Of a stretch of 64,000 nt of DNA, positions 3,241 through 36,830 are shown in pieces. Source of the stretch: Saccharopolyspora erythraea NRRL 2338 (lineage in GTDB: Bacteria; Actinomycetota; Actinomycetes; Mycobacteriales; Pseudonocardiaceae). The stretch covers positions 1,229,584 through 1,293,583 of the forward strand of contig NC_009142.1 in the NCBI RefSeq assembly GCF_000062885.1, in the 5' to 3' direction. Position 1 is the first letter of the stretch. The number at the start of each line of letters is the position of its first letter. The translations under genes and the position numbers were made by a program. The notes beneath the pieces were generated by a model, which was not told the origin of the DNA, ran no database searches, and was given only the letters and a program-made list of their open reading frames with translations.

Positions 3241-3608
3241 GGGGGTGAACGGTTTCGACTCCGTACGTTGATCCAAGGGAAGCGTGCCGGTGCAGGCGGA
3301 AGACCACCGAAAGCGTCGCCGCAACCAAATAAGCGCCGACAAGAGTCAGCGCGAGTTCGCCCTCGCCGCCTGAGCGAGGAGCGACTCTGTCGGACCGGGA
3401 ACGCCTCCGTCCCGGAATCCGGCATCATCTAGGAGGCTCTTACCGCCAGGTTCGGCCGCGGAACCTGGCGGGACACCAAACAGCGGCTGGGCTCGTCACA
3501 CCGGCTGGTTCGTGAGACCGGTGGAGCCAAGCAGAGGCACAGCGAACTGCGCACGGAGAAGTCTTGGTGAAGCGGCGGAGGACCCGGGTTCGATTCCCGG
3601 CACCTCCA
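3241..3608 (+). ncRNA. ssrA: tmRNA (SsrA)
   Basis: Transfer-messenger RNA. The 5' end GGGGGTG pairs with CACCTCC at the 3' end to make the alanine-type acceptor stem. The 3' T arm is GGGTTCGATTCCC. The internal reading frame begins at GCC 3335 and ends at TGA 3371-3373, giving tag ADKSQREFALAA, very close to mycobacterial ADSHQRDYALAA. The last genome-encoded base is the discriminator A at 3608, and CCA is not encoded. It lies downstream of smpB, its protein partner. A strong terminator follows immediately. Confidence 0.97.
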
Positions 3609-3609
3609 C

Positions 3610-4152
3610 TTGGAGCCTGTTCGGCGCCCTGGCGGGCGCCTTCCAGGCTCCTTGTTTTTTGTACGGGGGCCGAGTGCCCGTAGGCCCCTACGGTGCGGTG
3701 GGGGCGTTCGTCGGCTTCTCGGCTTTGGGGGCGTTGCCGGCCTGGTTCTGGACCAGCCCCATCTCTTGGCCGCCTTCGGTGGCCTTCGCCCTTTGGGGCC
3801 TGTTCGGCGCGCTGGCGGGTGCCTTTCAGGCTTCTTGTTTTGTACGGGGGCCGAGTGCCCGTAGGCCCCTACGGTGCGGTGGGGGCGTTCGTCGGCTTCT
3901 CGGCTTTGGGGGCGTTGCCGGCCTGGTTCTGGACCAGCCCCATCTCTTGGCCGCCTTCGGTGGCCTTCGCCCTTTGGGGCCTGTTCGGCGCGCTGGCGGG
4001 TGCCTTTCAGGCTTCTTGTTTTGTACGGGGGCCGAGTGCCCGTAGGCCCCTACGGTGCGGTGGGGGCGTTCGTCGGCTTCTCGGCTTTGGGGGCGTTGCC
4101 GGCCTGGTTCTGGACCAGCCCCATCTCTTGGTCACCTTCGGTGGCCTTCGCC
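3610..4152 (+). repeat. Three tandem ~181-bp repeats, each opening with a copy of the ssrA terminator
   Basis: The same sequence recurs with period 181 bp. The marker GTACGGGGGCCGAGTGCCCG starts at 3661, 3842 and 4023. Units begin near 3610, 3791 and 3972, and the last ends near 4152. Each unit starts with the terminator hairpin: perfect in unit 1 and G-U-rich in units 2 and 3 (GGGGCCTG with CAGGCTTC). Units 2 and 3 are nearly identical, so this is a recent tandem duplication. The open frames across it repeat the same peptide and are not considered genes. 4153-4346 holds nothing recognised. Confidence 0.9.
3612..3660 (+). terminator. Rho-independent terminator of ssrA
   Basis: GGAGCCTG (3612-3619) pairs with CAGGCTCC (3644-3651). 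An inner GGCGCC/GGCGCC pairing and a T run at 3655-3660 complete the hairpin. It starts four bases after the tmRNA 3' end. Degenerate copies of the same hairpin recur at about 3796-3840 and 3977-4021. Confidence 0.9.
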
Positions 4153-4346
4153 CCCCAAGCCCCGTCCCTGGGTCTTGCGGGGCCGGCTGGTCGCCTTGCT
4201 GGCTCCGCTGCGGCGGAGACAGGGCTCAGTCGGTATGAGCGCCCGGCGCCGGCAGTGCGTGGCCGACTGGGTGCGGCGGTGATCTCGGCGTGGATGCCGC
4301 GCCGGGAGCCCGCGGTGTCGGCCGGTGGGGCTGGTCGGCGGAGGCG

Positions 4347-16331: not shown

Positions 16332-16404
16332 GGGGCTGTGGCGCAGCTGGTAGCGCACTTGACTGGCAGTCAAGGGGTCACGGGTTCGAATCCCGTCAGC
16401 TCCA
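16332..16404 (+). tRNA. tRNA-Ala (GGC)
   Basis: 73-nt cloverleaf. GGGGCTG pairs with CAGCTCC as acceptor stem (one G-U), D arm GCGC...GCGC, anticodon arm CTTGA-CTGGCAG-TCAAG with GGC at positions 34-36, T arm ACGGG-TTCGAAT-CCCGT, discriminator A at 16404. CCA is not encoded. Its 3' 43 bases lie in the 44-bp sequence repeated at the far end of the integrated element, so the present 3' half came from the element and restores an intact tRNA. Confidence 0.96.
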
Positions 16405-16405
16405 C
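16362..16405 (+). other. attL: 44-bp attachment repeat within tRNA-Ala 3' end
   Basis: Exact 44-bp match to 36787-36830. It covers the tRNA anticodon loop to one base past the discriminator. The flanking bases differ on both sides (g/t before, c/t after), which fixes the repeat boundaries. The adjoining integrase gene marks this as the junction restored by the element. Confidence 0.93.
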
Positions 16406-16411
16406 CCAAGG

Positions 16412-16486: not shown

Positions 16487-17689
16487 CTAGACGGCTCGGA
16501 GCTGTGGACCATCTGTGGACCGCCGAAGGTGTTTCGAGAGCAGCGCGCCGGCGTCGCTGACCGACTGCCGGTCCGGATGGAGGTACCTCTGCGTCGTGGC
16601 CAGTGACGCGTGCCCGGCAATCTTGCGCAGGTGATGAACGGGCACGCCGGCATCTGCCATCCACGTCAGGCCGGTGTGGCGTAGGTCGTGGCGCCTCAGG
16701 TGCTCGTAGCCGAGCCGGGTTGCGACCTCATCCCATGAGGTCGCGTCACGGAGGACCGCGGTCGTGATCCGCCCGCCACGGGGTCCGGTGAACAGCCGGG
16801 CGTCCAGCGTGCCGTCGGTCTGGGCGATCCGCCGCTGCACGAGTTCACGAACCTCATCGATCAGCGGCACGGTGCGGGCCCGCTTGCCCTTCGTTCCTTT
16901 GTCGACCAGGCCACCTGGCGCGGTGGTGGTCTGACGCCGGACATTCCATGTCCACTCGGTGGTGTTGATGTCTCTGACTCGGCATCCGGAGACTTCGCCA
17001 ATGCGGGCAGCGGTGCAGGCCGCGAAGATCACCACGTCGCCCCAGCCTTCGTACTCGGTAGCGGAAGCCGCTACGAGTGCATCCGAGAGCTTCGTGAGGG
17101 TGGCCCAGTCGGGCAGCGCGAGCGAACGCGGATCGTCGAGCTCGTCTTCGGCGCGAGCGAGTTCTCGTTGCCATCCGGTCACCCTTGCCGGGTTCCGATC
17201 GATGATGCCGTCCCGCAGGGCTTGCTCCATGACGCGCACAAGCGGGGCGATGCTGTTCTTGATCGTCGATTCGCTGTATTCGTCGGCGATCCAGGCATGC
17301 ACGGCTCGGTCTACGGCTCCATTGGTGATCATGCGGACTGGGATGTGACCGAGGGTCGGAACAACGCGCTTACGCCATCCCGCCAGGTACGGATCGCGGG
17401 TCTTGTCTTCCACACCCCGGAGGGCGAGCGCCATGTTGGCGTCGCCGTACTCGGCAAGACTCATGTTGGCGGCGATCGGGTCGATGCCTCCGGAAGCTGC
17501 TCGCTTCATCAGGTCGATCCACGCCGCAGCCTGCTCTTCGTCCTTGTGCGACTCGGACAGAGAACGACGCTTGCTCGTCTGCGGGTCCGTCCAGCGCACG
17601 CGAGCGCGGTACGGCGCTGGTCGGTTCGGCATGTATTCGACGTCCGACGAGACCTTGACGCCGATCGGCGGTCGCTTGGCGCTGTTCAC
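16487..17689 (-). CDS. int: Tyrosine recombinase, AICE integrase
   Basis: 400-aa site-specific recombinase. Catalytic residues in the order of the family: Arg about 229 (TAARIGEVSG), His334-Arg337 (HDLRHTG), His360 (KIAGHASL) and nucleophile Tyr369 (TQRYLHP). The N-terminal half contains the SAM-like core-binding domain (DYSE..STIKNSIAPLVRVME region). GTG at 17689 with upstream AAAGGAA is preferred over the longer frame from 17749, whose first 20 residues merely translate the GTGACA repeats. It adjoins attL, so it should act on tRNA-Ala. The last codons overlap arm-type repeats. Confidence 0.95.
   Translation of the reverse strand: MNSAKRPPIGVKVSSDVEYMPNRPAPYRARVRWTDPQTSKRRSLSESHKDEEQAAAWIDLMKRAASGGIDPIAANMSLAEYGDANMALALRGVEDKTRDPYLAGWRKRVVPTLGHIPVRMITNGAVDRAVHAWIADEYSESTIKNSIAPLVRVMEQALRDGIIDRNPARVTGWQRELARAEDELDDPRSLALPDWATLTKLSDALVAASATEYEGWGDVVIFAACTAARIGEVSGCRVRDINTTEWTWNVRRQTTTAPGGLVDKGTKGKRARTVPLIDEVRELVQRRIAQTDGTLDARLFTGPRGGRITTAVLRDATSWDEVATRLGYEHLRRHDLRHTGLTWMADAGVPVHHLRKIAGHASLATTQRYLHPDRQSVSDAGALLSKHLRRSTDGPQLRAV
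16503..16521 (+). other. Putative integrase arm-binding repeats, left end
   Basis: GTGGACC-ATCT-GTGGACC at 16504-16521, about 100 bp inside attL and within the integrase C-terminal codons. The same spacing and orientation occurs about 100 bp inside attR (36675-36692). Arm-type integrase sites are expected at such positions; assignment is by placement and repetition. Confidence 0.55.
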
Positions 17690-17718
17690 TGGGCGGGTTC
17701 CTTTCGTGGTGACACGGT

Positions 17719-17795
17719 GACAGTGCGGTGACGGAGGCGTCACCGTCATTCGTGCAGGTCAAGGCTGGTTTGGTGACACGGTGACAGCGGTGACA
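17719..17795 (-). repeat. GTGACA-repeat module, copy 1 (rep 3' end / int leader)
   Basis: Read on the minus strand it begins TGTCACCGCTGTCACCGTGT, then TTGACC, GAA and GGTGAC at the same spacing as two other copies at 32094-32170 and 33502-33577. It spans the last codons of the RepA-like gene and the leader of int. Direct TGTCACC units plus opposite GGTGAC units suggest a protein-binding array: replication origin, transfer locus or operator. Confidence 0.7.
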
Positions 17796-18795
17796 CTTCT
17801 GTCGTGGGGTCGGTGTCACCGTCGATCGGGAAGTACTTCCCGCTGCTGGTGGCATTGAGCTGGCCGTCGCCTGCCATGCGTCGACAGGCCTGCTTCACCG
17901 ACGACAGCTCGATTCCCGTGGCCCGCGCGATAGCAGTCGGCCCGTCGCCTGGGCTTTCGCGGACGTGGCGGAGGATGGTGGCGCGGGTGTCGTGGAGGGT
18001 GTGGTCGGTGGCGGGGCCCTCGAGGAGCTGCCAGGCGCCGCTATTGGGGTGGAAGGCCAAGGCGTATTCGGCTTCGTCGATGTCGCGGCCGGTGACCTGT
18101 AGGACGCCGTCGGCTTTGTTGCGGCCTCTGCGGAGCACGAGGGTGGCGTCAGCGGCGCCGGCGATGCCGTTGGAACCGGAGACCGTTTCGAGGAAGTCCT
18201 CGGAGCCCATCTTGCGGACGTGGTGCACGAGCACGAACGCGACGCCGTAGCGGTCGGCAAGTTGTTTGGCGCGGCCGATGGCGGCGTAGTCGGCGTCGTA
18301 GGCCGACATCCCCGCGGGCGGTGTGCCGCGCATCTTGGCGAACACGTCGAGCACGACCATGCGAGCGTCCGGGTTCTGATCCAGCCACGCCGCGATTGCC
18401 TCGTCTCCACCCGCGGGCAGGGTCGGACAACTTGTGGCCAGGCTGAGGTTGCGCGGGGCGGGCTCGTCTCCGAGGAGCTTGCCCATGCGGGTCTTCAACC
18501 GCCGCGGGGTGTCTTCCAGGGCGAGGTAGAGCACCGGTCCGGGTTCGACATCGACCATGTCGAACGCGCGGCCGCCGGAGGCGACGGCGAGGGCGAGTCC
18601 GAGGGACATCCAGGACTTACCGACCTTGGGTGGTCCAGCCAGGACGTTGACGCCTTCGGCGAGGATGCCGGGCACTGCCCACCGAGGGTCGGGGAAGTCG
18701 GTGGCCATGAGGGCATCGGCGGTCCAGGCGTCGGCGAGTGCTTCGGCCGGGTGGCGGCGCAGGGGCCGGACGTTGTCGGGCTCGGTGGTGCTCAC
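17746..18795 (-). CDS. RepA-like replicative ATPase (AAA_25 family)
   Basis: 349-aa RecA-fold ATPase resembling RepA helicases of plasmids and the helicase-like partner of primase-polymerases. Walker A is GPPKVGKSW (about residues 54-62), Walker B MVVLDVFAKM, followed by FVLVHHVRKMGSED. The C-terminus has a helix-turn-helix-like segment (GPTAIARATGIELSSVKQACRR). GTG at 18795 follows GAGGTGA. The longer upstream frame is the antisense shadow of the methyltransferase. Probably unwinds the element for replication together with the prim-pol and SSB encoded upstream in the same run. Confidence 0.85.
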   Translation of the reverse strand: MSTTEPDNVRPLRRHPAEALADAWTADALMATDFPDPRWAVPGILAEGVNVLAGPPKVGKSWMSLGLALAVASGGRAFDMVDVEPGPVLYLALEDTPRRLKTRMGKLLGDEPAPRNLSLATSCPTLPAGGDEAIAAWLDQNPDARMVVLDVFAKMRGTPPAGMSAYDADYAAIGRAKQLADRYGVAFVLVHHVRKMGSEDFLETVSGSNGIAGAADATLVLRRGRNKADGVLQVTGRDIDEAEYALAFHPNSGAWQLLEGPATDHTLHDTRATILRHVRESPGDGPTAIARATGIELSSVKQACRRMAGDGQLNATSSGKYFPIDGDTDPTTEVSPLSPCHQTSLDLHE

Positions 18796-18799
18796 GTGG

Positions 18800-19546
18800 T
18801 CACCTCGTGGTGGTGTGGGCGAGGAGGGCTCGCCCAATGTGCTCGGTGACGGCGGGGACGACGGCGTTGCCGAGGGCTCGCAGGTGGGAGGCAACCAGTC
18901 GTTTGGGAAGCCCATGAGCCACGCGACCCACGTCGGGTTCAGGTAGCCACCGCTCTGCCCGCGTTTGGCCACCCGCTGCTCCAGAGCGGGGGCGTCCGGG
19001 CGGTAGTGGGGCCGGTAGGTGCAGTGGGCGTTGGCCATCGTTGCCCGCGGGGTGGGCCAGTACGAACAGTCGCTGTCGTGTGTGTGGGGCACCCAGGGAG
19101 CACGCGGGGACAACCGACCATTCGACCAGGTACCCGAGGTGGGAAAGGTCGTCGAGGATGATGCGGAAGGCGTCGGTGTCGCGGAGCAGGGCGGCGACGT
19201 TTTCGGCGAGGACGTATCGAGGTCGAATAGCGTCGATGACGTCGCGCATCCAGGGCCAGCCCCAGCGTTCGTCGGCGATGCCGCGGCGGCGTCCGTAGGT
19301 GCTGAAGGGCTGGCAGGGGAATCCGCCGGCCACGAGTTCGACGTCGGGTCGGGGCTGGGAGTGCCACCAGTCGACAGCGGTGCGGACGTCGTCATGACGG
19401 GGGACCTCCGGCCAGTGGTGTGCCAGGACTTGGCGGCACCAGGGATCGAGTTCGACTTGGCCGACGACGCGCATGCCAGCGCGTTCCAGGCCGAGTTCGA
19501 GGCCGCCGATCCCGGCGAACAGCGACAGCACGGTCAGCGGGTTCAT
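18800..19546 (-). CDS. DNA (cytosine-5)-methyltransferase
   Basis: 248-aa C5 methyltransferase. Motif I is LFAGIGGLELGLERAG, catalytic Cys78 is in GGFPCQPFS (motif IV), ENV at 115-117 (motif VI), QRLFVLAHP (motif VIII) and a terminal LRALGNAVVPAV (motifs IX-X). The target-recognition region is short, as in phage-borne enzymes, so specificity cannot be guessed. ATG at 19546 overlaps the prim-pol stop (ATGA), and the stop lies 5 bp before the RepA-like start, so it is embedded in the replication operon. No cognate restriction gene is visible; it probably protects the element during transfer. Confidence 0.92.
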   Translation of the reverse strand: MNPLTVLSLFAGIGGLELGLERAGMRVVGQVELDPWCRQVLAHHWPEVPRHDDVRTAVDWWHSQPRPDVELVAGGFPCQPFSTYGRRRGIADERWGWPWMRDVIDAIRPRYVLAENVAALLRDTDAFRIILDDLSHLGYLVEWSVVPACSLGAPHTRQRLFVLAHPAGNDGQRPLHLPAPLPPGRPRSGAAGGQTRAERWLPEPDVGRVAHGLPKRLVASHLRALGNAVVPAVTEHIGRALLAHTTTR

Positions 19547-20487
19547 GCGGCCACCCGCCTCGGGCGCGCGGCCCCGGCCCGCAGGCCGGAGGCGATGGTC
19601 TGCCGCGCCTGGGCCCACTGGTAGGCGCCGGCGGCGACGTGGCTCTGTGCGGCGTGTAGCAGCAGGTCGGTGACCTCCTGCTCGCCGAGCGCGCCGCCGG
19701 CGACGAGTTGACCGAGCGCGGTGGCGGCGCAGTACAGCGCGAAGTTGCGTTGCCCGCCGTCGGCACTAGTGACGCGCCGGACCTCGCCCTCGATCGCTGC
19801 CCGCAGGAACCCGGCGCGGCGCCCGCTGATCGTGGCCACCGGGGTGGGTTGCTGCGGGGGCAACTCCTGGGGCCGCAGTCGCTCGATCAGCCAGCCCGGA
19901 AGGGGCATGAGCGGGCGGTCGTGGGTGATGGTGTAGGTGCCGTCGCGGCGGATCGAGCCGGGTGCGACGACGTAGCCGCCGTGGCCGCGGGTGTCGATGC
20001 CCCAGCCGAGCCCGTTGCGCTCGCCCTGGGTGATCCTCAGCCCCGCGTCGGCGGGGACGGTGAAGTACAGGTGTGTGCCCCCGCTGGGCGTGGCGACGGT
20101 GAAGGTCTCCAGCGGAGGCGCCTGTCCGGCCTCGGCACACAGCAGCAGAAACACATCCATCCCAGACTCGACACCCTGGGCGGCCCAGCGGTCGGGGACG
20201 GGCTTGCCGGGCTTGGGCACGTCGAAATCGACCACGAGGAGTCCGGCGGGGCCGGTGGCCAGGCCGATGTTGTAGGCGTCGTGGGTCCAGCAGGCGCGGA
20301 TGCGCTTGGCGTAGATCGTGGCGCGCTGCTCCCATTTGAGGTGCCCGTCGGCGCAGACGCCGGTGCGGGGGCAGTCGTCGACGCCGTGCAATGCGGGGAA
20401 GCTGCCACCGGGCTTGAGCGGGAACACCGGCCACCCGCGGGCGGCCACCGCCAGCGCGGCGTCGAGTAGTGCCTGGGACGCGGGCAT
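19543..20487 (-). CDS. Bifunctional DNA primase/polymerase (prim-pol)
   Basis: 314-aa archaeo-eukaryotic-type primase-polymerase. The N-terminal motif is GWPVFPLKPGGSFPA; the metal-binding DxD is in LLVVDFDVPKPGK. The central ATPSGGTHLYF and the closing GWGIDTRGHGGYVVAPGS are hallmarks of the PF09250 domain. CPRTGVCADGH may bind zinc. ATG at 20487 follows GGAGG. This is the replication initiator type of one class of AICEs, used instead of RepSA. It couples to the methyltransferase by an ATGA overlap. Confidence 0.93.
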   Translation of the reverse strand: MPASQALLDAALAVAARGWPVFPLKPGGSFPALHGVDDCPRTGVCADGHLKWEQRATIYAKRIRACWTHDAYNIGLATGPAGLLVVDFDVPKPGKPVPDRWAAQGVESGMDVFLLLCAEAGQAPPLETFTVATPSGGTHLYFTVPADAGLRITQGERNGLGWGIDTRGHGGYVVAPGSIRRDGTYTITHDRPLMPLPGWLIERLRPQELPPQQPTPVATISGRRAGFLRAAIEGEVRRVTSADGGQRNFALYCAATALGQLVAGGALGEQEVTDLLLHAAQSHVAAGAYQWAQARQTIASGLRAGAARPRRVAA

Positions 20488-20569
20488 GACGAGCCTCCAT
20501 TCCGAGAAAGAGCAGGGGACGGGACGGCGGCGGCCCGGCCGGTACTGCGCCGGCCGGGCCACCGGGCGA

Positions 20570-22778: not shown

Positions 22779-25103
22779 TCAGTCGCTCGCGTCGGCGGGG
22801 GATCGCCGCGCCACTTGTTCACGCACGGTGAGGGGGTCGACGTGGTAGAGGTTCTTGGTGGACGGGACCTTGATGCCCTGGTCGGCCAGCTCTGCCACGA
22901 GCTGCGGGCCGGTCATGGGCTTGCCGCCGCGGTGGTAGGTGCGCCCGTACTGGGCGACCAGGGCCTTGGCGGCCTCAGCCGCGGAGACCTTCTCCTCGCC
23001 CAGCACGTGGTCGAGGTCGGTGAGCAGGTCCCGCGGCTCCTGCTCGACCGCGGCAATCGCGGTGATGTTGGCGGCCTGCCGCAGCTGCATGGCGCGTTCG
23101 ACGATGGCTTTGTGCTGGCCACGCGGCACGTAGTAGCAGCGCATGAGGCCGGGCTTGGCCAAAAAGCCGCGGCTGGTCATCGCCGTGCCCACGTCACCGG
23201 GGCCTTCCTCGGTGGCCGGCTCCAGCCCGACGGCGGAGATACCGCGCCGGTAGGCGCTGGTCCCGAGGATCGCGTCGTTGGACTGCTGGTCACCGATGGC
23301 GAAGCAGGCCGTGTTCGACATGACCGCCATGAGCTTGCGGGGCAGGGAGTCGGTGGAGGGCTCGGGGGTGAGGAACATCAGGGTGATGCCGTACTTGCGG
23401 GAGGCGTTCATCAGCAGGATCGCCAACCGCTGGGCCTCTTTGCCGTGTTCTTCGTGCAGGAACAGGGCCTGGCACTCGTCGATCACCATGATCCGGGGCC
23501 GCAGCCGCGCGTCCTTTTCCGCCAGGCGACGGGAGACCTTTTCCGCGTCGGGGTCGCCATTGCGGGTGTGCTCTGCCAGCGCCTTGCCGCGGATGTCCAG
23601 TTCGGCGTAGAGCTCGCGCAGGGTGTTCATGCACGCCTCGACGGTCTCCTCGCCGGCGCCGGTGACCAGCGACCGCAGGCGGGGACGCATCATCTCGTAG
23701 TCGGCGTTTTGGGCCAGCACGAACACGTCGATGTCGACCAGCGGATCGAGCATGGCGCCCAGGCAGGCGGTGATGGCCAGGGTGGACTTGCCCGAGCCCA
23801 TCATTCCGGCGTTGGCCCAGTTCTTGCCGGAGAAGTGGCCGGTCACGGTGTCGCCGCGCATGTTGACCGCGACCGGGACACCGGCGAAGTAGTCGGTGAC
23901 AGCGGTGGACAGCTCGGCCAGCAGCGGCCAGTCCTCGACCGGGTCGGTGAGCACGCCGGGGTCGGCGATCCACAGGTCGAGCACGCCGGGCTTGTCCTTG
24001 GGTTCGGTGGCCCACACCTCGACCGCCAGACGCCCCAGGTTGTGTGCCAGGACGTTCTTCTTGCGGGCGATCTCGGAGACCGGGACCTGCTGCGGCAGCC
24101 GGATCTGGCAGCGCCAGCCCTTGCCGTCCTTGCCCAGCCCCGTCTCCCACACCCGCGCGGGGTGCGTCGGGGTGCCCCAACCGGCCTTGAACGCCTTGTC
24201 CAGGCCGGAAATGCCCAGGTGACGCAGCGCTCCGAGGATGGAGCTCTCGTCGATGTCGTCGGCGGCATCCTGCTCGTCGTAGGTGGCGGAGGTGACCCAG
24301 TCGGGCAGGTTGTGGGACTGCTTGCCGGTCTTGTGCAGCGCGGCGATCCCACCGACGAGTCCGGCTCCGGTCAGCCACGGGAACAGCGCCATCGCCACCG
24401 ACCACAGGCCGGTCACGGTGTCGGCCACGCCGGTGGCGGTGCCGGCCACGGCGGCCCAGTATCCCTGGGTCCACACGCTCTCCCAGCTCGCGCCGCCGGC
24501 GTTGCCGGGGAAGAACTCCCCGATCTCCGCACCCGCCCCGTAGACCGCGACACCGACGGTGACCAGCAGGAACAGCGCGGACAGGGTAGCCAGGGTGTAG
24601 CCGGCGGCCTTGGTGGCCTTGCCCGCGACGGTGAGCATCTCGCCGATGCGGGACCAGCGGGCGTTGGCCGACTCGCGGCGCTGCTGCTCGAGCACCGCCA
24701 GTTCGCCGTAGTTGCGGTCGGCGCGGGCCTGGCGGATCGCCGCGGTCAGATCGCGATGCAGCAGCCGCGCCCACGCCCGGCTGTTGACGTCGCGGGCCCC
24801 GGCGTAGACGAACATCAGGTGCCGCCGGGCCCCTGCCGAGGCGTCCCACCCGGTGCTGATCGCGCCCGGGGTGGCCTTGATGCCGCGGACCGCGAGGGCA
24901 CCGCCGCGCTGGGCGACCGCCGTGATGCCGGTTCGGGCCGGGGGCTGCTGGTCGTCGCGGACGTCCAGCTCGCGGTCGGCGTCCTGCTCGGTGGTGGTGT
25001 CGGCGGGCAACGCCAGCGTCTGGCCCGCCTGCTGGTGCTGGGGGTGGGGGAACTGGATCAGCTTCGCCCACGTGTCGGTGGTGCCGTGCGGCTGCTCGGA
25101 CAT
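22779..25103 (-). CDS. FtsK/SpoIIIE-type DNA translocase (TraB-like conjugation protein)
   Basis: 774-aa membrane-bound DNA pump. Membrane segments lie at about 167-192 (ATLSALFLLVTVGVAVYGAG) and 230-256. The motor domain has Walker A GMMGSGKST (433-441) and Walker B RIMVIDECQALF (about 537-548). The C-terminal ~120 residues end in a helical region (GPQLVAELADQGIKVPSTKN) that may be the winged-helix DNA reader. In pSAM2-like elements one such hexameric protein moves double-stranded DNA between hyphae. ATG at 25103 with GAAGGGTGA is the real start; the longer frame is shadow. Confidence 0.93.
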   Translation of the reverse strand: MSEQPHGTTDTWAKLIQFPHPQHQQAGQTLALPADTTTEQDADRELDVRDDQQPPARTGITAVAQRGGALAVRGIKATPGAISTGWDASAGARRHLMFVYAGARDVNSRAWARLLHRDLTAAIRQARADRNYGELAVLEQQRRESANARWSRIGEMLTVAGKATKAAGYTLATLSALFLLVTVGVAVYGAGAEIGEFFPGNAGGASWESVWTQGYWAAVAGTATGVADTVTGLWSVAMALFPWLTGAGLVGGIAALHKTGKQSHNLPDWVTSATYDEQDAADDIDESSILGALRHLGISGLDKAFKAGWGTPTHPARVWETGLGKDGKGWRCQIRLPQQVPVSEIARKKNVLAHNLGRLAVEVWATEPKDKPGVLDLWIADPGVLTDPVEDWPLLAELSTAVTDYFAGVPVAVNMRGDTVTGHFSGKNWANAGMMGSGKSTLAITACLGAMLDPLVDIDVFVLAQNADYEMMRPRLRSLVTGAGEETVEACMNTLRELYAELDIRGKALAEHTRNGDPDAEKVSRRLAEKDARLRPRIMVIDECQALFLHEEHGKEAQRLAILLMNASRKYGITLMFLTPEPSTDSLPRKLMAVMSNTACFAIGDQQSNDAILGTSAYRRGISAVGLEPATEEGPGDVGTAMTSRGFLAKPGLMRCYYVPRGQHKAIVERAMQLRQAANITAIAAVEQEPRDLLTDLDHVLGEEKVSAAEAAKALVAQYGRTYHRGGKPMTGPQLVAELADQGIKVPSTKNLYHVDPLTVREQVARRSPADASD

Positions 25104-25198
25104 CTTGTGCTCACCCTTCACGGACTCGCAGGGTCGACGGAGGAGGAGAAAGAGGGGCCGGTGCGGCAGGGGGACGGGACCGCACCGGCCGGTGCGGG

Positions 25199-26449
25199 TT
25201 ACTTCTTGGTCTGCTTGCGGGTCTGCCCGGTGGCCTGCTCCCAGGCGGTGATAAACCCGTCGGCGGTGGCCCAGCGGGTGCCGAGCTTCTTCGCGATGGC
25301 GTTCACCGACTCCTGCGCGGGATCGATCTCGCCGGAGTTCACCGCGGCCCAGAACGCCGCGCGGTGGTCGTCGGCGGCCTTGCGCTCGGGCTCCGGGACG
25401 AACCCGTTCTCGGCTTCGCCGGAGGCTTCGTCGCCGTCGTTTCCGGCGGCGGGGTGTGGGTTCTTCCCATGCAGGTGAGAAGGCGTGGAAGCGGGGTTCT
25501 TCCCGTCCTGGGTGGACGGCTGTCCCCATGCCGCCTTGGAGGCGGCGATGAACCGGTCGGTGAGGTGGGCGCGCAGCTTCGGCGCGGCCACCATCGACAC
25601 CGCCAGCCCCAGGGGGACGAGACCGAACACCAGCGCTCCCGCGGTGCCGGTGGCGCCGGTGCCGAGGTAGTGCGGGGCGACGTTGAGCACCACCTCGACC
25701 GCGAGCAAGCCGACCTTGAGCCACGTGAACGGCGCCCGATGGAAGGGGACCGTCGGGGCCGGGGCGGTGATGGTGAACCCCGCCAACTGCGCCACGAGGA
25801 TCGCGAACACCGGCACCGTGAAGATCGGGCTCACCACCCAGTTGATCCACGCTGTGCCCGCCGAGATGCGGTTGAGCTCGACGCCCACGTTGGCCGCCCC
25901 GAGGATCACCGCGAACACCGCCGGCAGCAGCGCCAGCATCGGCACCCACAACCGCGCCGTGTTCAACCGGGCCAGGTCACCGGTCGGGGAGGTCAGGCGC
26001 TTGTAGGAGTAGCGGGCCACCTGGGTGGCGGCCTCGTCGTCGCGCTCCCGCTTGGTCATGCCCTGCTCGTGCTCGCGACGCGCGGCCTCGTCGTCCAGCA
26101 GCGCCTTGCGGGCCTGGTAGGCGTGTTCGCGCTGGTCGGCCCGCAGCCGACGGGCGTAGTCCTGCGCGGACTGGATCTCGCCCGCGGACAGCGCCTCGAA
26201 CAGCGCCTCGTCGCCCTGCAACCGGACCGCGGCCTGGGCGGTCTGCACCGCGCTTGCCAGCCCCAGCAAGTCCGGGGTGTGCTTGTCACCCCAGATCGCG
26301 GTCTCGTCGGCGATCGGCGTGACCGGGTGGGTGTCCACCCGCCAGTTGGCCGGCAGATACCCGTCGTCGGCGCCGCTCGCGGTGGGCGGCTCGGTCGTCA
26401 GGTAGGGGTCGAGCACGTCGCCGCCGCGCTGACGTTCGGTGCTGGTCAT
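25199..26449 (-). CDS. SpdB-like / DUF2637-type membrane protein
   Basis: 416-aa protein with a charged N-terminal helical half (residues 60-150, partly coiled coil) and four membrane segments in the middle (LWVPMLALLPAVFAVILGAA, WINWVVSPIFTVPVFAILVA, WLKVGLLAVEVVLNVAP, GALVFGLVPLGLAVSMVAA). The C-terminal cytosolic part ends in a helix-turn-helix-like KKLGTRWATADGFITAWEQ. It resembles the spread proteins that help plasmid DNA cross septa inside recipient mycelium. ATG 26449 overlaps the upstream stop. It precedes the translocase gene by 95 bp. Confidence 0.8.
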   Translation of the reverse strand: MTSTERQRGGDVLDPYLTTEPPTASGADDGYLPANWRVDTHPVTPIADETAIWGDKHTPDLLGLASAVQTAQAAVRLQGDEALFEALSAGEIQSAQDYARRLRADQREHAYQARKALLDDEAARREHEQGMTKRERDDEAATQVARYSYKRLTSPTGDLARLNTARLWVPMLALLPAVFAVILGAANVGVELNRISAGTAWINWVVSPIFTVPVFAILVAQLAGFTITAPAPTVPFHRAPFTWLKVGLLAVEVVLNVAPHYLGTGATGTAGALVFGLVPLGLAVSMVAAPKLRAHLTDRFIAASKAAWGQPSTQDGKNPASTPSHLHGKNPHPAAGNDGDEASGEAENGFVPEPERKAADDHRAAFWAAVNSGEIDPAQESVNAIAKKLGTRWATADGFITAWEQATGQTRKQTKK

Positions 26450-32052: not shown

Positions 32053-32093
32053 GCGGCCGAATGACAACGGGGTGGCACGGCTCCGCTGAGGTA

Positions 32094-32170
32094 GTGTCAC
32101 CGCTGTCACCATGTCACCGAACGCGGGGTGACCTGTGCGAACGATGGTGACAGTACGGTGACACCCCTAT
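32094..32170 (+). repeat. GTGACA-repeat module, copy 2 (upstream of the Shedu 3' end)
   Basis: TGTCACCGCTGTCACCATGT... then GAACGATGGTGACAGTACGG. Aligns without gaps to copy 3 (33502-33577), roughly 80% identical over 77 bp, and to copy 1 on the minus strand. Copies 2 and 3, both plus-oriented, flank the Shedu gene. Confidence 0.8.
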
Positions 32171-32205: not shown

Positions 32206-33255
32206 TTATTCAGAACCCTCTCGGGATGACTGATCCTTTTCCAGAATGTCTAGTCTGCGCTTGGCTCTGGCAGCCATTTGATCGTACGTAATTACCTGGA
32301 TGCTGTGAAGTCTGGCATTTAGTCCACGGAGCCCCTTGAACCAATTCAGATCCTTTCCCTGTGATCTTCCTATGACGATCGTTGCGCGAGGGTAGTAAGC
32401 CACTATGTTCTCGTAGTCATCCATTCCCTTCTTTGCGCTTTCGTGAAGCTTGTCAAGGTAGCGATGGCACTGCCCGATTGCTTTTGACGAGTCGCTGGAC
32501 CAGTACCACGATTTATGGGAACTGTCCCAGATTATTGGCTCCATTCTTGGCGTCTTGAGTTCGACGATGTCTCTTAGTCCATCCAGCGAATTTTCGAGCA
32601 TCATGTCGACGCTCTCTCTGTTTCCTATGGACCGTACTTCGTCTAGTGACCTGTACTCATCGCCTAGCGCCCAGGCGTGCCGCTCCATCCACCGTTGAAA
32701 ATCTGACTCTGGGTGGTCGGCGCTTGCATCAAGCATTCGATTGAGATCTTCAAGCGCCTGGCGCAGGTCTGCCGATCGAGCCGAAAGCTGAATCGACCGT
32801 ATTAGATGCTCGCCGTCGGGGTCGGCTGCAAGTCGCTTCAGTGAACCGTCGTCTTGTGAAATCTTGCGTATAAGGTTTCCCAGCGTGTGTACGTCGATTG
32901 ATCGTTCGCTGTCGCCATCCTCGTCGGCGCGAAAAACGAAATAGCGACCATTTTCGGGCTGGCTGGAAATGGCTGCGATTTTCTGTAGTTCTTCGCGAAG
33001 CTGCAGAAATTCATCATTATTCAAGGTGAAGTCAACGGGGTATCCTACCTGAAGCCCGCTGTCGTTCTTTTTCCAGTAGCGAACCTTTAGGGATACTTCA
33101 ATTCGTGATTCGCTTCGCGTTATATACCTTGGAATTAACTCGAAGTGTGTTCTTGAGCCCGCGCGCAATGTAATCGGATCGCTATATGAGAGACTTTCCG
33201 CTGCAGCTTGGCGCCGGTCGAAGATATCATCGCCCACGCTGACCTCCTGCTTCAT
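32206..33255 (-). CDS. sduA: Shedu anti-phage defence nuclease (SduA, DUF4263)
   Basis: 349 aa. The C-terminal DUF4263 nuclease domain is clear: FQRWMERHAWALGDEY, then VDMMLENSLDG (Asp217), DIVELKTPR (Glu232, Lys234), AIGQCHRYLDKL (Gln262), ATIVIGRSQG, LNARLHSIQVITYDQM. These form a PD-(D/E)xK centre; Shedu proteins nick foreign DNA as single-gene defence systems. The first ~170 residues are the variable sensor part. GC is visibly lower than in the element backbone, and repeat copies flank the gene, which suggests separate acquisition. ATG 33255 is used. Confidence 0.92.
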   Translation of the reverse strand: MKQEVSVGDDIFDRRQAAAESLSYSDPITLRAGSRTHFELIPRYITRSESRIEVSLKVRYWKKNDSGLQVGYPVDFTLNNDEFLQLREELQKIAAISSQPENGRYFVFRADEDGDSERSIDVHTLGNLIRKISQDDGSLKRLAADPDGEHLIRSIQLSARSADLRQALEDLNRMLDASADHPESDFQRWMERHAWALGDEYRSLDEVRSIGNRESVDMMLENSLDGLRDIVELKTPRMEPIIWDSSHKSWYWSSDSSKAIGQCHRYLDKLHESAKKGMDDYENIVAYYPRATIVIGRSQGKDLNWFKGLRGLNARLHSIQVITYDQMAARAKRRLDILEKDQSSREGSE

Positions 33256-33619
33256 GAAGAATCAACAACCGTGCATCGTGGCTGCCCGAAGAACCGTTAC
33301 GCACACGATGAAGGCTGGACAGGTACGGGCGCAGCGGTTGCAGTGACCGGCATGTCAGCGGCGGTGGGGGTACGTGCCTGAGCCTGTCCTGGTGTCGGAA
33401 GGCTGCGTCGTTCTGGTCGACGCAGCCCGCGCTCGCGGCGGGACAGAACAAGATCTTCGACAGTGCTCGTGAAGTCGGTGACAGAAGTTCTTGTCGCGGA
33501 CTGTCACCGCTGTCACCGTGTCACCGAACCTGGTTTGACCGGCGAGAACGCTGGTGACAGTACGGTGGCAGCCCTAGCTTGCGGTGTCACCGGACAGCTG
33601 AAGACGGCTGTAACAGTGG
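33256..33619. other. Noncoding region upstream of Shedu
   Basis: 364 bp. Contains the presumed Shedu promoter (minus strand), then GTGACA module copy 3 (33502-33577) and the left inverted end of the 325-bp repeat segment (33606-33622). No gene is supported. Confidence 0.5.
33502..33577 (+). repeat. GTGACA-repeat module, copy 3 (downstream boundary of the Shedu cassette)
   Basis: TGTCACCGCTGTCACCGTGT, then TTGACC and GAACGCTGGTGACAGTACGG. Same layout and length as copy 2. Its first 24 bases match copy 1 nearly perfectly on the opposite strand. Confidence 0.8.
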
Positions 33620-33622
33620 TTA
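33606..33622. repeat. 17-bp inverted end, left
   Basis: GGCTGTAACAGTGGTTA is the exact reverse complement of 36636-36652. The pair brackets a 3.05-kb segment that starts and ends with the 325-bp direct repeats. Within copy 1 itself, AACAGTGGTTA (33612-33622) is also inverted at 33934-33944. Confidence 0.75.
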
Positions 33623-33944
33623 ATCGCGCTCGCGTCGTTGGTTCACTTTGGCCTGTACTGCGGGGTGCTCCGGGATAGTCGAATCTCCACTTCGGTTTCG
33701 GACCTTGGCGTCGGTCGCGGACATGCGACACGCCTCGCTCCTATGCTGCCCGCGTCCCATGAGGGCGACGTACGTGCGAGCGCGAGTGCGGGGCAGCATG
33801 CGGAACTAGCCAGGGAGGCTTGTTCGCAAAGGTGTTCTCAAGGCCCTCTCAGATCGCCACAGACGACCGCTTGGCCCCACCCGCGGGTTCTGCCTAGGGA
33901 GCGATCGTTCATGAGCTAAGCCACGCCCTCGACTAACCACTGTT
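33620..33944 (+). repeat. 325-bp direct repeat, copy 1
   Basis: Starts TTAATCGCGCTCGCG and ends CTCGACTAACCACTGTT. Matches 36323-36647 over the whole 325 bp with a single difference seen (CGCAAAGG here, CGCAGAGG there). Open frames inside have no credible start or composition. Contains one member of a hairpin motif family (33836-33878). Confidence 0.92.
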
Positions 33945-34330
33945 GCTGGAACAGTGGGGTCTGCTTGGCGCCGGCGGGAGCCCTCTAGGCGCAAGGTGGC
34001 TGCTCAGGATGCGTGTGAGGCTCTAGCGCCCCCTCTAGACCTAGAGGGGGCTCCTTCTAGGTCTAGAGCGTCGGAATGTCACCGCTGTCCCCTCGGCCTG
34101 GTCAAGGCTGGAGCAGTGGGGGGATTGGCTGTCCTCACGTCGTCGACCACGGCCCGTCAGGCTCTGCCCTGGGCCTAAGGCGCCTACAGCCGGTGGGCGC
34201 AGGAAAGCGGATCTCAGAGCGCGCTGAGATCGCCGTAGACGCCCTGAACGCGAGTGTCGGTACTTGGCGCACTCGTCGACAGGCGTCATGTTCGACTCAT
34301 GACCGCGCCGCAAGCGCACAGCCCCGTCGT
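33945..34330. other. Noncoding region with hairpins and 3' module X of the adjacent membrane gene
   Basis: 386 bp. CTCTAGACCTAGA (34033-34045) is inverted at 34056-34068, and the same bases can pair alternatively as CCCCCTCTAG/CTAGAGGGGG. Module X (about 34084-34179) shares a 20-base exact core, CCTGGTCAAGGCTGGAGCAG (34097-34116), with module Y at 35042-35137. A third motif at 34211-34230 (ATCTCAG-AGCGCG-CTGAGAT) is a perfect hairpin. No gene supported. Confidence 0.6.
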
Positions 34331-34933
34331 CTACCAGATGATCACGCTTTCCCGGTCCCGCTCGATGTATTGCTGATCGACCCAAGGATTGTGTGCTTCA
34401 CCGGGATCACTGTCAGGAAGACGTGACAGCAGAACGACGCGAAGTTCCATCCGGGCAATCTGTTGCCAACCTTCTGGGAGTTTGACTGGAATTTCGAGTG
34501 GCTCGTTCCTGGCTCGGTTGTATTCGTATAGTGAAACCTCATATACGGGCGCGCCGTCCTGACTCGTCTCCGTTGCTGGCTTGAATATCTCACCTCGGTA
34601 CCGGAAATCGACGATTACGCCGGGCGGCCCCTCTTTGTATACTGCTTTGATGACGAATGTTTCTTCAGTTGTCTCAACTGAAAGAGACCACTTTGGTGCC
34701 GCATTGCGATGACTCGTGTCTTCTGTTAGTTCAACGGTCCGGAGCGCGGCAGCCGCGGATTTCTCGGCCGCCTGGGCGGCTTGCTCTGCAACAGGAAGGG
34801 CGCGTTCGGCGGATGCTGCGGATCGCTCTGCTGCGTTTGCCGACTTCCGAGACGCCCACCAGCTCAGGCTGCCTACTCCCAACGCGGCCCCAGCGATGAT
34901 GTTGGTGATAGCGGCAGCTATTCCTTCGTCCAT
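34331..34933 (-). CDS. Membrane-anchored coiled-coil protein of unknown function, 200 aa
   Basis: N-terminal membrane helix (AAAITNIIAGAALGVGSLSWW), then an Ala/Glu/Ser heptad region (about residues 30-70, SAASAERALPVAEQAAQAAE), then a beta-rich C-terminal domain (WSLSVETTEETFVIKAVYKE, MELRVVLLSRLPDSDPG). ATG 34933 with GGAAG upstream is preferred to 35002. Low GC and codon use differ from the element backbone, like Shedu and the next gene. Not recognised; architecture and location fit a defence or exclusion protein. Confidence 0.75.
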   Translation of the reverse strand: MDEGIAAAITNIIAGAALGVGSLSWWASRKSANAAERSAASAERALPVAEQAAQAAEKSAAAALRTVELTEDTSHRNAAPKWSLSVETTEETFVIKAVYKEGPPGVIVDFRYRGEIFKPATETSQDGAPVYEVSLYEYNRARNEPLEIPVKLPEGWQQIARMELRVVLLSRLPDSDPGEAHNPWVDQQYIERDRESVIIW

Positions 34934-35041
34934 TAAGAAGTGCCTTCCATTAGGTGGTAGGTTCACTGCTACATAGGCGCAAGCGTTGGACGCGTTACCC
35001 ATCGCCGTCCCGCCAGCGGGGAGGCGCCGTCAAGGTTTCCT

Positions 35042-35137
35042 GCTGCTCCCCTGACCTGGTCAAGGCTGGAGCAGGAGTGGATTGGCGGCCCTGAAGTCGT
35101 CGCCCACGGTCCGGCGGGCACGGTCCGTGGGCAAGGC
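35042..35137. repeat. Module Y, homologue of module X, on the 3' side of the second membrane gene
   Basis: Aligns with 34084-34179 at roughly three-quarters identity, including a 20-base exact core (35055-35074) and shared ATTGGC and GTCGTCG blocks. Each copy lies downstream of a minus-strand membrane/coiled-coil gene. Could be a structured RNA end, a recombination site or a decayed coding remnant. Confidence 0.65.
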
Positions 35138-35213
35138 GTCGGCCGCCCGTGGGAAGCTGGAAATCGTCGATCCGGCACCTGACGGTGGCTTCCACTTCAA
35201 TGCGTGTCCTGGG

Positions 35214-35906
35214 TCAGTTGTCAACCGACTTCGTGCTCTCGCCTGATCCTGCCAAGAGGGACAGGTAATAGGTTATGTCCGCCTCGACTTCGGTCGCAGT
35301 GCCCCATATTTTGTTTAGCAATTCCTCCTTCTTTTCCCTATCTATCACCTCGCCCTTGGTGATGTCATCAAGCAAACCGGTCGCAAAGTGAGAAATGGCT
35401 GCCATTATGTTGTGGAGTTTGTGCACCGGAGGCGGCGCGTCCTTCGGTGAATGCATTCCTGCACTCAGTAGGATGTGGTCAAATTCGGATCTTTTGGTTA
35501 CGACCGCCTCTATAAGTTCGGACACCTGTTTGCGTGTCGCGGAGTAGCTTAAATTATGGTCGGCTGCCAAAAGAAATAGTCTTTTTAGGTTGATGAGAAT
35601 CTCTCTCGACTTGAACAAGATGTCAGATAGTGATTCGCGATGTTTGGCAATCCGGATCTCGTTTCGGTCGGCCTCTGCGGATGCTAGCTGACCCTCCATT
35701 AAGCTGACCTGCTTCTCGGCCGCATCGGCTTGCCGTTTGGCATCGGCTGCCTGGTTCATTGCTGCAACTGCTTGCTCGCTAGCCGACCTGGCTTGCCTGC
35801 TCGCGATTCGTGCCTGATAGGAAGCGATACCCGCGGCTGCGAGTGCAACTACTACTGCGACCCACGCTGCCACGTCGCCCAGCACATTCTCGTCCACGCG
35901 GATCAC
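35214..35906 (-). CDS. Membrane-anchored coiled-coil protein of unknown function, 230 aa
   Basis: N-terminal membrane helix (DVAAWVAVVVALAAAGIASY), then a long coiled coil (about residues 30-85; ASRQARSASEQAVAAMNQAA, EKQVSLMEGQLASAEADR). A helical C-terminal domain follows (FKSREILINLKRLFLLAADH, ISHFATGLLDDITKGEVI). Same N-terminal plan as the neighbour at 34331-34933 but an unrelated C-terminal part. AT-rich for this genome. ATG 35906. Function unknown. Confidence 0.75.
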   Translation of the reverse strand: MIRVDENVLGDVAAWVAVVVALAAAGIASYQARIASRQARSASEQAVAAMNQAADAKRQADAAEKQVSLMEGQLASAEADRNEIRIAKHRESLSDILFKSREILINLKRLFLLAADHNLSYSATRKQVSELIEAVVTKRSEFDHILLSAGMHSPKDAPPPVHKLHNIMAAISHFATGLLDDITKGEVIDREKKEELLNKIWGTATEVEADITYYLSLLAGSGESTKSVDN

Positions 35907-36230
35907 CTTACTGAAGCGCGAGCCATTTGAGATACGGCTCTTCGTTGGTGATTCCGCCTCTGCGAGACACGGAACCGTACGTGCCGCTTGGTCGTACCTG
36001 TGGTTTCCAGGCTTCGGAGAATCGCCCTCAAGGGGCCTGACGTCGCCGTAGATGCACTGTCGAGCACTGCCGGGTGTTTCGGGTGGGCCGCAGCTGTAGG
36101 GCTGCCGGGAACGGGGGCCGCCTGGGGCTCAGTTCGCCCCCCGTGCGGACTGCCCCCCACTGTTCCAGCTGTCCCATCTGACCTGCGAAAAGTGAATCCT
36201 TGCACGGCTGTGAACCAATCGATCCGAGAA
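35907..36230. other. Noncoding region before the tRNA-Phe relic
   Basis: 324 bp. Should hold the promoter of the 230-aa protein gene. A motif near 36011-36062 belongs to the same hairpin family as 34203-34250 and 33836-33878. Otherwise nothing is recognised; small open frames here cross the tRNA relic and are not genes. Confidence 0.45.
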
Positions 36231-36272
36231 CTGAAAAGCGGAAGGTCGGCGGTTCGACCCCGCCCCTGGCCA
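36231..36272 (+). other. tRNA-Phe 3' half (attachment-site relic)
   Basis: CTGAAAA (anticodon loop with GAA), GCGG closing stem, variable AAGGTC, T arm GGCGG-TTCGACC-CCGCC, acceptor strand CTGGCC and discriminator A: the complete 3' half of an actinobacterial tRNA-Phe. No 5' half precedes it, so it is not functional. tRNA-Phe is a known target of actinomycete elements (pSE211). This marks the att end of another element inside the tRNA-Ala AICE. Confidence 0.85.
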
Positions 36273-36287
36273 CCTCGAAGAGCTGCG

Positions 36288-36324
36288 AAAACGGTCCTCG
36301 TCGATCTCGGCGAGGGCCGTTTTT
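36288..36324 (+). terminator. Rho-independent terminator following the tRNA-Phe relic
   Basis: AAAACGGTCCTCG pairs with CGAGGGCCGTTTT (one G-U) around a 10-base loop, ending in a T run. It lies 15 bp after the tRNA-Phe 3' half, as in an intact tRNA gene. Copy 2 of the 325-bp repeat starts in its T run. Confidence 0.85.
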
Positions 36325-36647
36325 AATCGCGCTCGCGTCGTTGGTTCACTTTGGCCTGTACTGCGGGGTGCTCCGGGATAGTCGAATCTCCACTTCGGTT
36401 TCGGACCTTGGCGTCGGTCGCGGACATGCGACACGCCTCGCTCCTATGCTGCCCGCGTCCCATGAGGGCGACGTACGTGCGAGCGCGAGTGCGGGGCAGC
36501 ATGCGGAACTAGCCAGGGAGGCTTGTTCGCAGAGGTGTTCTCAAGGCCCTCTCAGATCGCCACAGACGACCGCTTGGCCCCACCCGCGGGTTCTGCCTAG
36601 GGAGCGATCGTTCATGAGCTAAGCCACGCCCTCGACTAACCACTGTT
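36323..36647 (+). repeat. 325-bp direct repeat, copy 2
   Basis: Second copy of 33620-33944, one mismatch seen. It begins in the T run of the terminator at 36288-36324, so the left junction is different from that of copy 1. The right end runs into the 17-bp inverted end (36636-36652). Confidence 0.92.
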
Positions 36648-36652
36648 ACAGC
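36636..36652. repeat. 17-bp inverted end, right
   Basis: TAACCACTGTTACAGCC, exact reverse complement of 33606-33622. Five bases extend past the end shared by the two 325-bp copies, so the match is not explained by the direct repeat alone. Confidence 0.75.
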
Positions 36653-36666
36653 CATCTGTCGCCACC

Positions 36667-36692
36667 GTGGACTTGTGGACCATCCGTGGACC
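36667..36692 (+). other. Putative integrase arm-binding repeats, right end
   Basis: GTGGACT, then GTGGACC-ATCC-GTGGACC (36675-36692), about 100 bp inside attR. Same units, spacing and orientation as at 16504-16521. Confidence 0.55.
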
Positions 36693-36786: not shown

Positions 36787-36830
36787 ACTGGCAGTCAAGG
36801 GGTCACGGGTTCGAATCCCGTCAGCTCCAC
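36787..36830 (+). other. attR: 44-bp attachment repeat (displaced tRNA-Ala 3' end)
   Basis: Exact copy of 16362-16405. It is the original chromosomal 3' part of tRNA-Ala, now cut off from its 5' half. The tRNA's native terminator follows at 36840. Confidence 0.93.

Follow-up and report, generated by a model that had tools for sequence, protein, structure and literature searches.

Integrative elements of the AICE type, exemplified by pSE211, pSE101, pSAM2, and pMR2, carry a tyrosine integrase gene by a tRNA att site, a replication protein, repeats of the tRNA 3' end, and cargo genes at the far end. Their replication proteins belong to the classes RepSA, RepAM, and Prim-Pol, and arm-type integrase sites are known from pSAM2 as well as from lambda attP. 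The element described here, which lies in a 64,000-nt stretch of Saccharopolyspora erythraea NRRL 2338 DNA (the window, whose numbering is used throughout unless stated otherwise), resembles these AICEs in each of those respects, its replication protein being of the Prim-Pol class. It differs from them in holding a second att end, of tRNA-Phe type, in its own P arm, and in having one noncoding block, M, doubled around cargo. A first-pass annotation of the window had described the two copies of this block as modules on the 3' side of two membrane/coiled-coil genes, and had suggested that they are cassette ends, a shared RNA structure, or recombination sites.

The 20.4-kb element occupies positions 16362–36830, is bounded by tRNA-Ala sequences, and has the modules near its far end (Table 1). 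The tRNA-Ala gene lies at 16332–16406, and 44 nt of its 3' end are repeated unchanged at the far end, while a tyrosine integrase (PF00589) is encoded at the tRNA gene and a plasmid-type replication protein, a Prim-Pol of family PF09250, at 19543–20562. When an FtsK/TraB-like transfer protein was sought, a 1056-aa frame at 22779–25949 was found to match no Pfam family at E 0.001 and to have an ATP-binding-like stretch recognizable by eye. The element also encodes an AAA_25 protein (PF13481, 17746–19395) and a helix-turn-helix regulator accompanied by a flavoprotein-like gene. A noncoding repeat with TGTCACC iterons surrounds the Shedu-type defence gene (32095–32169 and 33502–33576) and occurs as an inverted copy by the integrase gene (17739–17797); this module may represent an origin or a transfer site. 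Another repeat in the window, found at 3241–4199 soon after a tmRNA gene, consists of a 181-bp unit in three tandem copies (100%, 100%, and 83%).

Table 1. Features of the tRNA-Ala element and of the element end nested in it (window coordinates).
Feature	Positions	Strand	Remarks
tRNA-Ala 3' end, att copy, integrase side	16362–16405	+	44 nt
Tyrosine integrase of tRNA-Ala element	16487–17749	-	PF00589
Candidate arm-type sites, P' side, by integrase gene	16504–16521	+	GTGGACC twice (16504/16515), 11 bp apart
Shedu-type (SduA) defence gene, cargo	32206–33255	-	Lies between 75-bp repeats (32095, 33502)
Left motif G2 of tRNA-Ala element	33606–33621	+	GGCTGTAACAGTGGTT
325-bp direct repeat, copy 1	33620–33944	+	tRNA-Ala element's own P-arm DNA
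Left motif G of tRNA-Phe-type end	33945–33959	+	GCTGGAACAGTGGGG
Block H	33984–34068	+	~85 bp, CTAG palindromes CTCTAGACCTAGAG...CTAGGTCTAGAG
Module 1, block M of P arm	34069–34214	+	Iteron-like start; core with motif G 34106–34121
Block D3, copy 1	34215–34250	+	TCTCAG...CTGAGATCGCCGTAGACGCC
Gene A, 201-aa membrane/coiled-coil protein, cargo	34331–34936	-	
Module 2, second copy, block M only	35028–35173	+	Degenerate motif G 35064–35079
Gene B, 230-aa membrane/coiled-coil protein, cargo	35214–35906	-	
Block D3, copy 2	36015–36063	+	Diverged direct repeat of 34202–34250
Block C	36124–36169	+	CTCAGTTCGCCC and inverted motif G' 36155–36170
tRNA-Phe 3' end, att core of putatively captured element end	36231–36273	+	
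325-bp direct repeat, copy 2	36323–36647	+	One mismatch to copy 1
Right motif G2' of tRNA-Ala element	36638–36653	-	Inverted partner of 33606
Candidate arm-type sites, P side, tRNA-Ala element	36675–36692	+	GTGGACC twice (36675/36686), 11 bp apart
tRNA-Ala 3' end, att copy, far side	36787–36830	+	44 nt, identical

The resemblance between the two modules is real, as first described: 104 of 135 aligned columns are identical (77%) around an exact 20-nt core, CCTGGTCAAGGCTGGAGCAG, and the best local alignment of the two regions scores 103, the highest score among 500 first-order Markov simulations being 30. The core has two exact copies in the window, starting at 34097 and 35055, and is absent from all of 100 dinucleotide-preserving shuffles. 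The homology covers the limits originally given (34084–34179 and 35042–35137), but its true extent is slightly wider, as listed in Table 1. A genome-wide search for the module, proposed together with the original description, was carried out by DNA comparison with the 96-nt form and found two copies in the genome, both at this locus, and none in 149 other relatives. Each gap in the alignment of the modules measures 1 or 2 nt, which leaves them no common protein frame; the possibility that they are remnants of one duplicated protein-coding gene, which had been named as the finding that would overturn the original reading, is thereby ruled out.

Both modules do lie 3' of minus-strand genes, whose stop codons end at 34331 (gene A) and 35214 (gene B), but module 2 is at the same time 5' of gene A. 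Neither gene product matches any Pfam family, and the PADLOC and NCBIfam matches to gene B are weak and coiled-coil in appearance. Homologues of gene A with 35–37% identity (G442 and G443) occur at a chromosomal-looking locus without modules, and homology to gene B is confined to its N-terminal membrane/coiled-coil part. That the two genes share no C-terminal sequence was borne out by BLASTP, which finds only a weak N-terminal coiled-coil stretch (E 0.26), and as judged by these comparisons the genes are not paralogues beyond the coiled coil. This last point argues against the idea that the modules are promoter or terminator regions of the membrane genes that were duplicated along with them. 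Such a role would suit the position of module 2 upstream of gene A and the location of both modules within ~120 bp of a stop codon, but a scan of 33900–36350 revealed no terminator-like site and one promoter-like site at chance level, and the homologous region at a tRNA-Ser site, described below, has neither gene A nor gene B; we consider it highly unlikely. The proposal of a shared RNA structure likewise finds no support, given fold z-scores of 0.65, -2.48, and -1.46 and a covariation term of 0.11, which is close to zero on three related sequences and constitutes a weak test. The Rfam matches comprise a fragment resembling tmRNA at the tRNA-Ala repeat along with weak, chance-like ones, and none of them falls in the module stretch.

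The nature of the modules is best seen from a copy of the region that lacks genes A and B. Window positions 33945–34250 align at 73% identity to positions 284770–285060 of the same genome (positions 1501–1791 of locus L008), and window positions 36015–36169 align at 71% to 285012–285179. At 284.8 kb one aligned part runs directly into the other, with neither gene A nor gene B in between. This copy forms the far end of a second element, which is integrated at a tRNA-Ser gene (1543–1629 in locus L017) and whose 56-nt att repeat in L017 is found 115 nt past the beginning of block C. The order of blocks at the tRNA-Ser site is H, M, D3, C, att, and because the gene-free, contiguous copy lies beside an att site, module 1 can be identified as part of a conserved att-proximal region, the P arm. 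In the window, blocks M and D3 are each present twice, with genes A and B between the copies; module 2 starts where block H would be expected to end and stops where D3 would be expected to start, and it therefore corresponds to block M alone. A ~17-kb element in the same genome agrees in size with pSE211 as given in PMC3733707, where strain E3 is described as being without an 11-kb region containing integrase and phosphotransferase genes; this region is presumably the tRNA-Ser element.

The gene-free copy also bears on the reading of each gene with its module as a mobile cassette, in which the module would be an integron-type recombination site. The succession of gene B and module 2, then gene A and module 1, all in one orientation, is indeed reminiscent of integron cassettes and their attC sites, where a gene is followed by a related noncoding module in repeated fashion, and a 75-bp repeat likewise follows the Shedu gene, with another copy on the opposite side of that gene. 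However, the module region exists without the genes at 284.8 kb, the genome has two module copies and no array, and the one integrase tested against the integron integrase profile TIGR02249 scored 12.6 bits against a cut-off of 265; unlike attC sites, the modules would derive from the element's own att arm. Nor do cassette ends hold up as a general rule, since 18 other element ends (L087, L094, and L097 omitted) mostly have no module repeats bracketing genes, the resemblances being limited to L095, where two att ends are 85.6% identical over 270 bp, and to short repeats of block C or D3 in L090 and L086. We therefore regard the cassette reading as very unlikely. The two att ends of L095 are 4.8 kb apart (-4915 to -4658 and -110 to 159 in oriented distance from block C) and represent a nested or tandem end in their own right.

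How a block of P-arm DNA could have become doubled is suggested by the surrounding sequence. The tRNA-Phe att core has a match in plasmid pMR2, next to its integrase gene, and block C is followed by the tRNA-Phe 3' end and a terminator-like hairpin akin to those at the tRNA-Phe copies flanking the 17-kb element at 7.82–7.84 Mb. This tRNA-Phe 3' end and the similar hairpin give the segment 33945–36322 the appearance of a tRNA-Phe-type element end. On either side of the segment stands one copy of a 325-bp block that has no further copy in the genome. When one 2703-bp period is deleted in silico, the inverted 25-bp arms at 33602 and 36633 come to lie ~330 bp apart and the tRNA-Ala element is left with a short, gene-free P arm, whose G2–G2' spacing falls within the 228–361 bp between the left motif G and block C in L078–L082, L084, and L089. 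The tRNA-Ala element may thus have captured a tRNA-Phe-type element end, with the 325-bp direct repeats left as if by homologous recombination, although the sequence does not prove the order of events. As module 2 consists of block M only, capture of one whole element end would be insufficient and further duplication would be needed; the tandem modules would then be a relic of nested element ends, and the cargo genes would have settled between P-arm blocks. The 25-bp inverted repeats could instead bound a transposon or MITE by which the genes were brought in, as their arms are 92% complementary around a 3-kb segment and the 325-bp block stands in direct repeat. Against this, the genome has only two copies, both here, no transposase is seen in the segment given that neither gene A nor gene B falls in a Pfam family, and a like inverted pair is found at matching positions by att in other elements, which makes transposon ends very unlikely. 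If the capture of an element end is correct, one element end nested in another would provide a direct trace of how such elements become mosaic.

The inverted pair shared with other elements involves a short motif, G (GGCTGGAACAGTGGGG), which overlaps the 20-nt core; a forward copy lies upstream of block C and an inverted copy (G') just before att. With up to two mismatches allowed, forward motif G has 10 matches in the 9.2 kb around block C (-400 to +60 nt relative to its start, summed over 20 loci, L087 being omitted because it nearly duplicates L086, from the same genome), compared with four in 196 kb elsewhere. Three of these four lie 0.8–2.8 kb upstream in L083, L085, and L095, whereas the fourth is an exact copy at position 7447 of L017, by iteron-like DNA. 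A left copy with no more than two mismatches is present within 3 kb in 13 of the 20 loci. The search sequence by which block C was located contained G', which makes finding G' there in part a given, and the left copy alone constitutes independent evidence.

The two copies of an element moreover tend to match each other. Fourteen left–right pairs together show 11 mismatches, where shuffled pairings average 22.5 (p 0.0001), and the 13 pairs that remain after removal of the tRNA-Ala element show 11, where shuffling gives 17.1 (p 0.001), relatedness among the elements being ignored in both comparisons. Variants that depart from the consensus are common to both copies, namely ATTGGGG in L080, AGAGGGG in L082, GAAACAG in L084, and GTAACAGTGGTT in the tRNA-Ala element. 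The 14 pairs were kept out of 24 possible cases (23 sequences, with the window counted twice); L018, L086, L087, L088, L090, L092, L093, L094, L096, and L097 provided no pair judged usable with up to four mismatches, and of these L094 looks like a chance match and not an element end. For L017 the left copy at -195 was used and a weaker one at -355 passed over, and for the tRNA-Phe end in the window the copy at 33945 was used and not that of module 1.

Taken together, these comparisons make it probable that the modules are partial copies of att-proximal noncoding P-arm DNA of an AICE, present in a nested element end, and that the core works at the DNA level through the G pair. The motif G in the 20-nt core would be one of two matched, inverted sites enclosing the P arm, and a protein encoded by the element would bind both and thereby influence excision or integration, with a role in replication or transfer as the next choice. 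Among the original suggestions, recombination sites thus pointed in the right direction, as the modules appear to come from the P arm beside att, but the cassette reading fails as a general rule and the RNA reading finds no support.

That next choice can be put more strictly, with the modules as a replication or transfer origin consisting of iterons and a hairpin, and not a recombination arm, and motif G as a replication or translocase site. In keeping with such an origin, module 1 opens with a copy of the TGTCACCGCTGTC repeat that is also present at 32090 and 33497, it has GGTCAAGGCTGG in common with the repeat at 17739, and the exact motif G at position 7447 of L017 lies by an iteron-rich stretch upstream of a replication-type gene of the tRNA-Ser element. 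However, motif G is concentrated beside att, and it persists while the iteron sequences vary between elements. An origin is accordingly a possible but less likely explanation, and a P-arm site acting through the G pair remains our preferred reading. A much broader proposal, which we regard as doubtful, is that AICEs of this family carry an element-specific inverted G/G' pair that delimits the att arm, controls excision, replication, or transfer, and doubles as a slot for cargo including defence genes, with doubled modules as the seams of cargo gain.

A matched inverted site pair in such elements is not described in the titles and abstract openings that were searched, although a description elsewhere is quite possible. 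The pair is therefore an apparently undescribed detail, whereas nested element ends are a known kind of process. If the G pair has a role, it would mark element ends in genomes and show the place where cargo is taken up. Within a class-wide draw of 394 genomes, the arrangement of G' next to a tRNA was found in two, namely this genome and G109, the latter probably by chance; because motif G is unseen by a tRNA T-arm outside this genome except in G109, the arrangement may be limited to this element family.

The att core is flanked to either side by short tandem repeats that resemble the arm-type sites of the P and P' arms of pSAM2 and lambda attP. The P' side of all four elements for which both ends are available (L017, L081, L093, and L096) has a tandem CTCAGT, 12 bp apart, directly following the tRNA gene. 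On the P side, block C has a CTCAGT pair in L017 and L096 and a single exact site in L081 and L093. No other CTCAGT pair within 25 nt was found on the forward strands of these four sequences. The tRNA-Ala element has GTGGACC pairs in the corresponding places (Table 1), and the forward strand of the window contains no further pairs of this kind. On the basis of position and symmetry, both kinds of pairs are candidate arm-type sites of the respective integrases. What sets these arms apart from pSAM2 and lambda attP is the inverted G pair on the P side, the sequence of which is kept even though the arm repeats differ (CTCAGT versus GTGGACC). What was first an odd repeat becomes an anatomical landmark of actinomycete mobile elements, comprising a modular att arm, candidate tandem integrase sites, a CTAG-rich block, and a co-varying inverted pair.

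Among 390 genomes of the family, 46 have matches to parts of the region, this genome being one of them, and many of the matches are weak. The CTAG pattern of block H was found in 23 stretches of the species collection, from the genera Nonomuraea, Spongiactinospora, Streptosporangium, Herbidospora, Actinopolyspora, and Saccharopolyspora, and in none of the viral_contigs set. In a broad DNA search of plasmids and phages, the only matches were to block H, in a single Saccharopolyspora plasmid, and to the tRNA-Phe 3' end. The CTAG-rich palindromic block of ~85 bp is thus common to Nonomuraea and related genera and to Saccharopolyspora (L055–L077). The far ends of L078–L096, inspected by eye from translations, often have a helix-turn-helix regulator just before the P arm, followed by a gene of NUDIX, GNAT, phosphotransferase, or toxin-antitoxin type. 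Finally, head-to-head palindromes that resemble motif G, CGGTTACAGCC...GGCTGTAACCG and CGGTTCCAGCC...GGCTGGAACCG, with arms 10–11 nt apart, occur ~9 kb upstream of block C in L083 and L088 and near -294 in L096.
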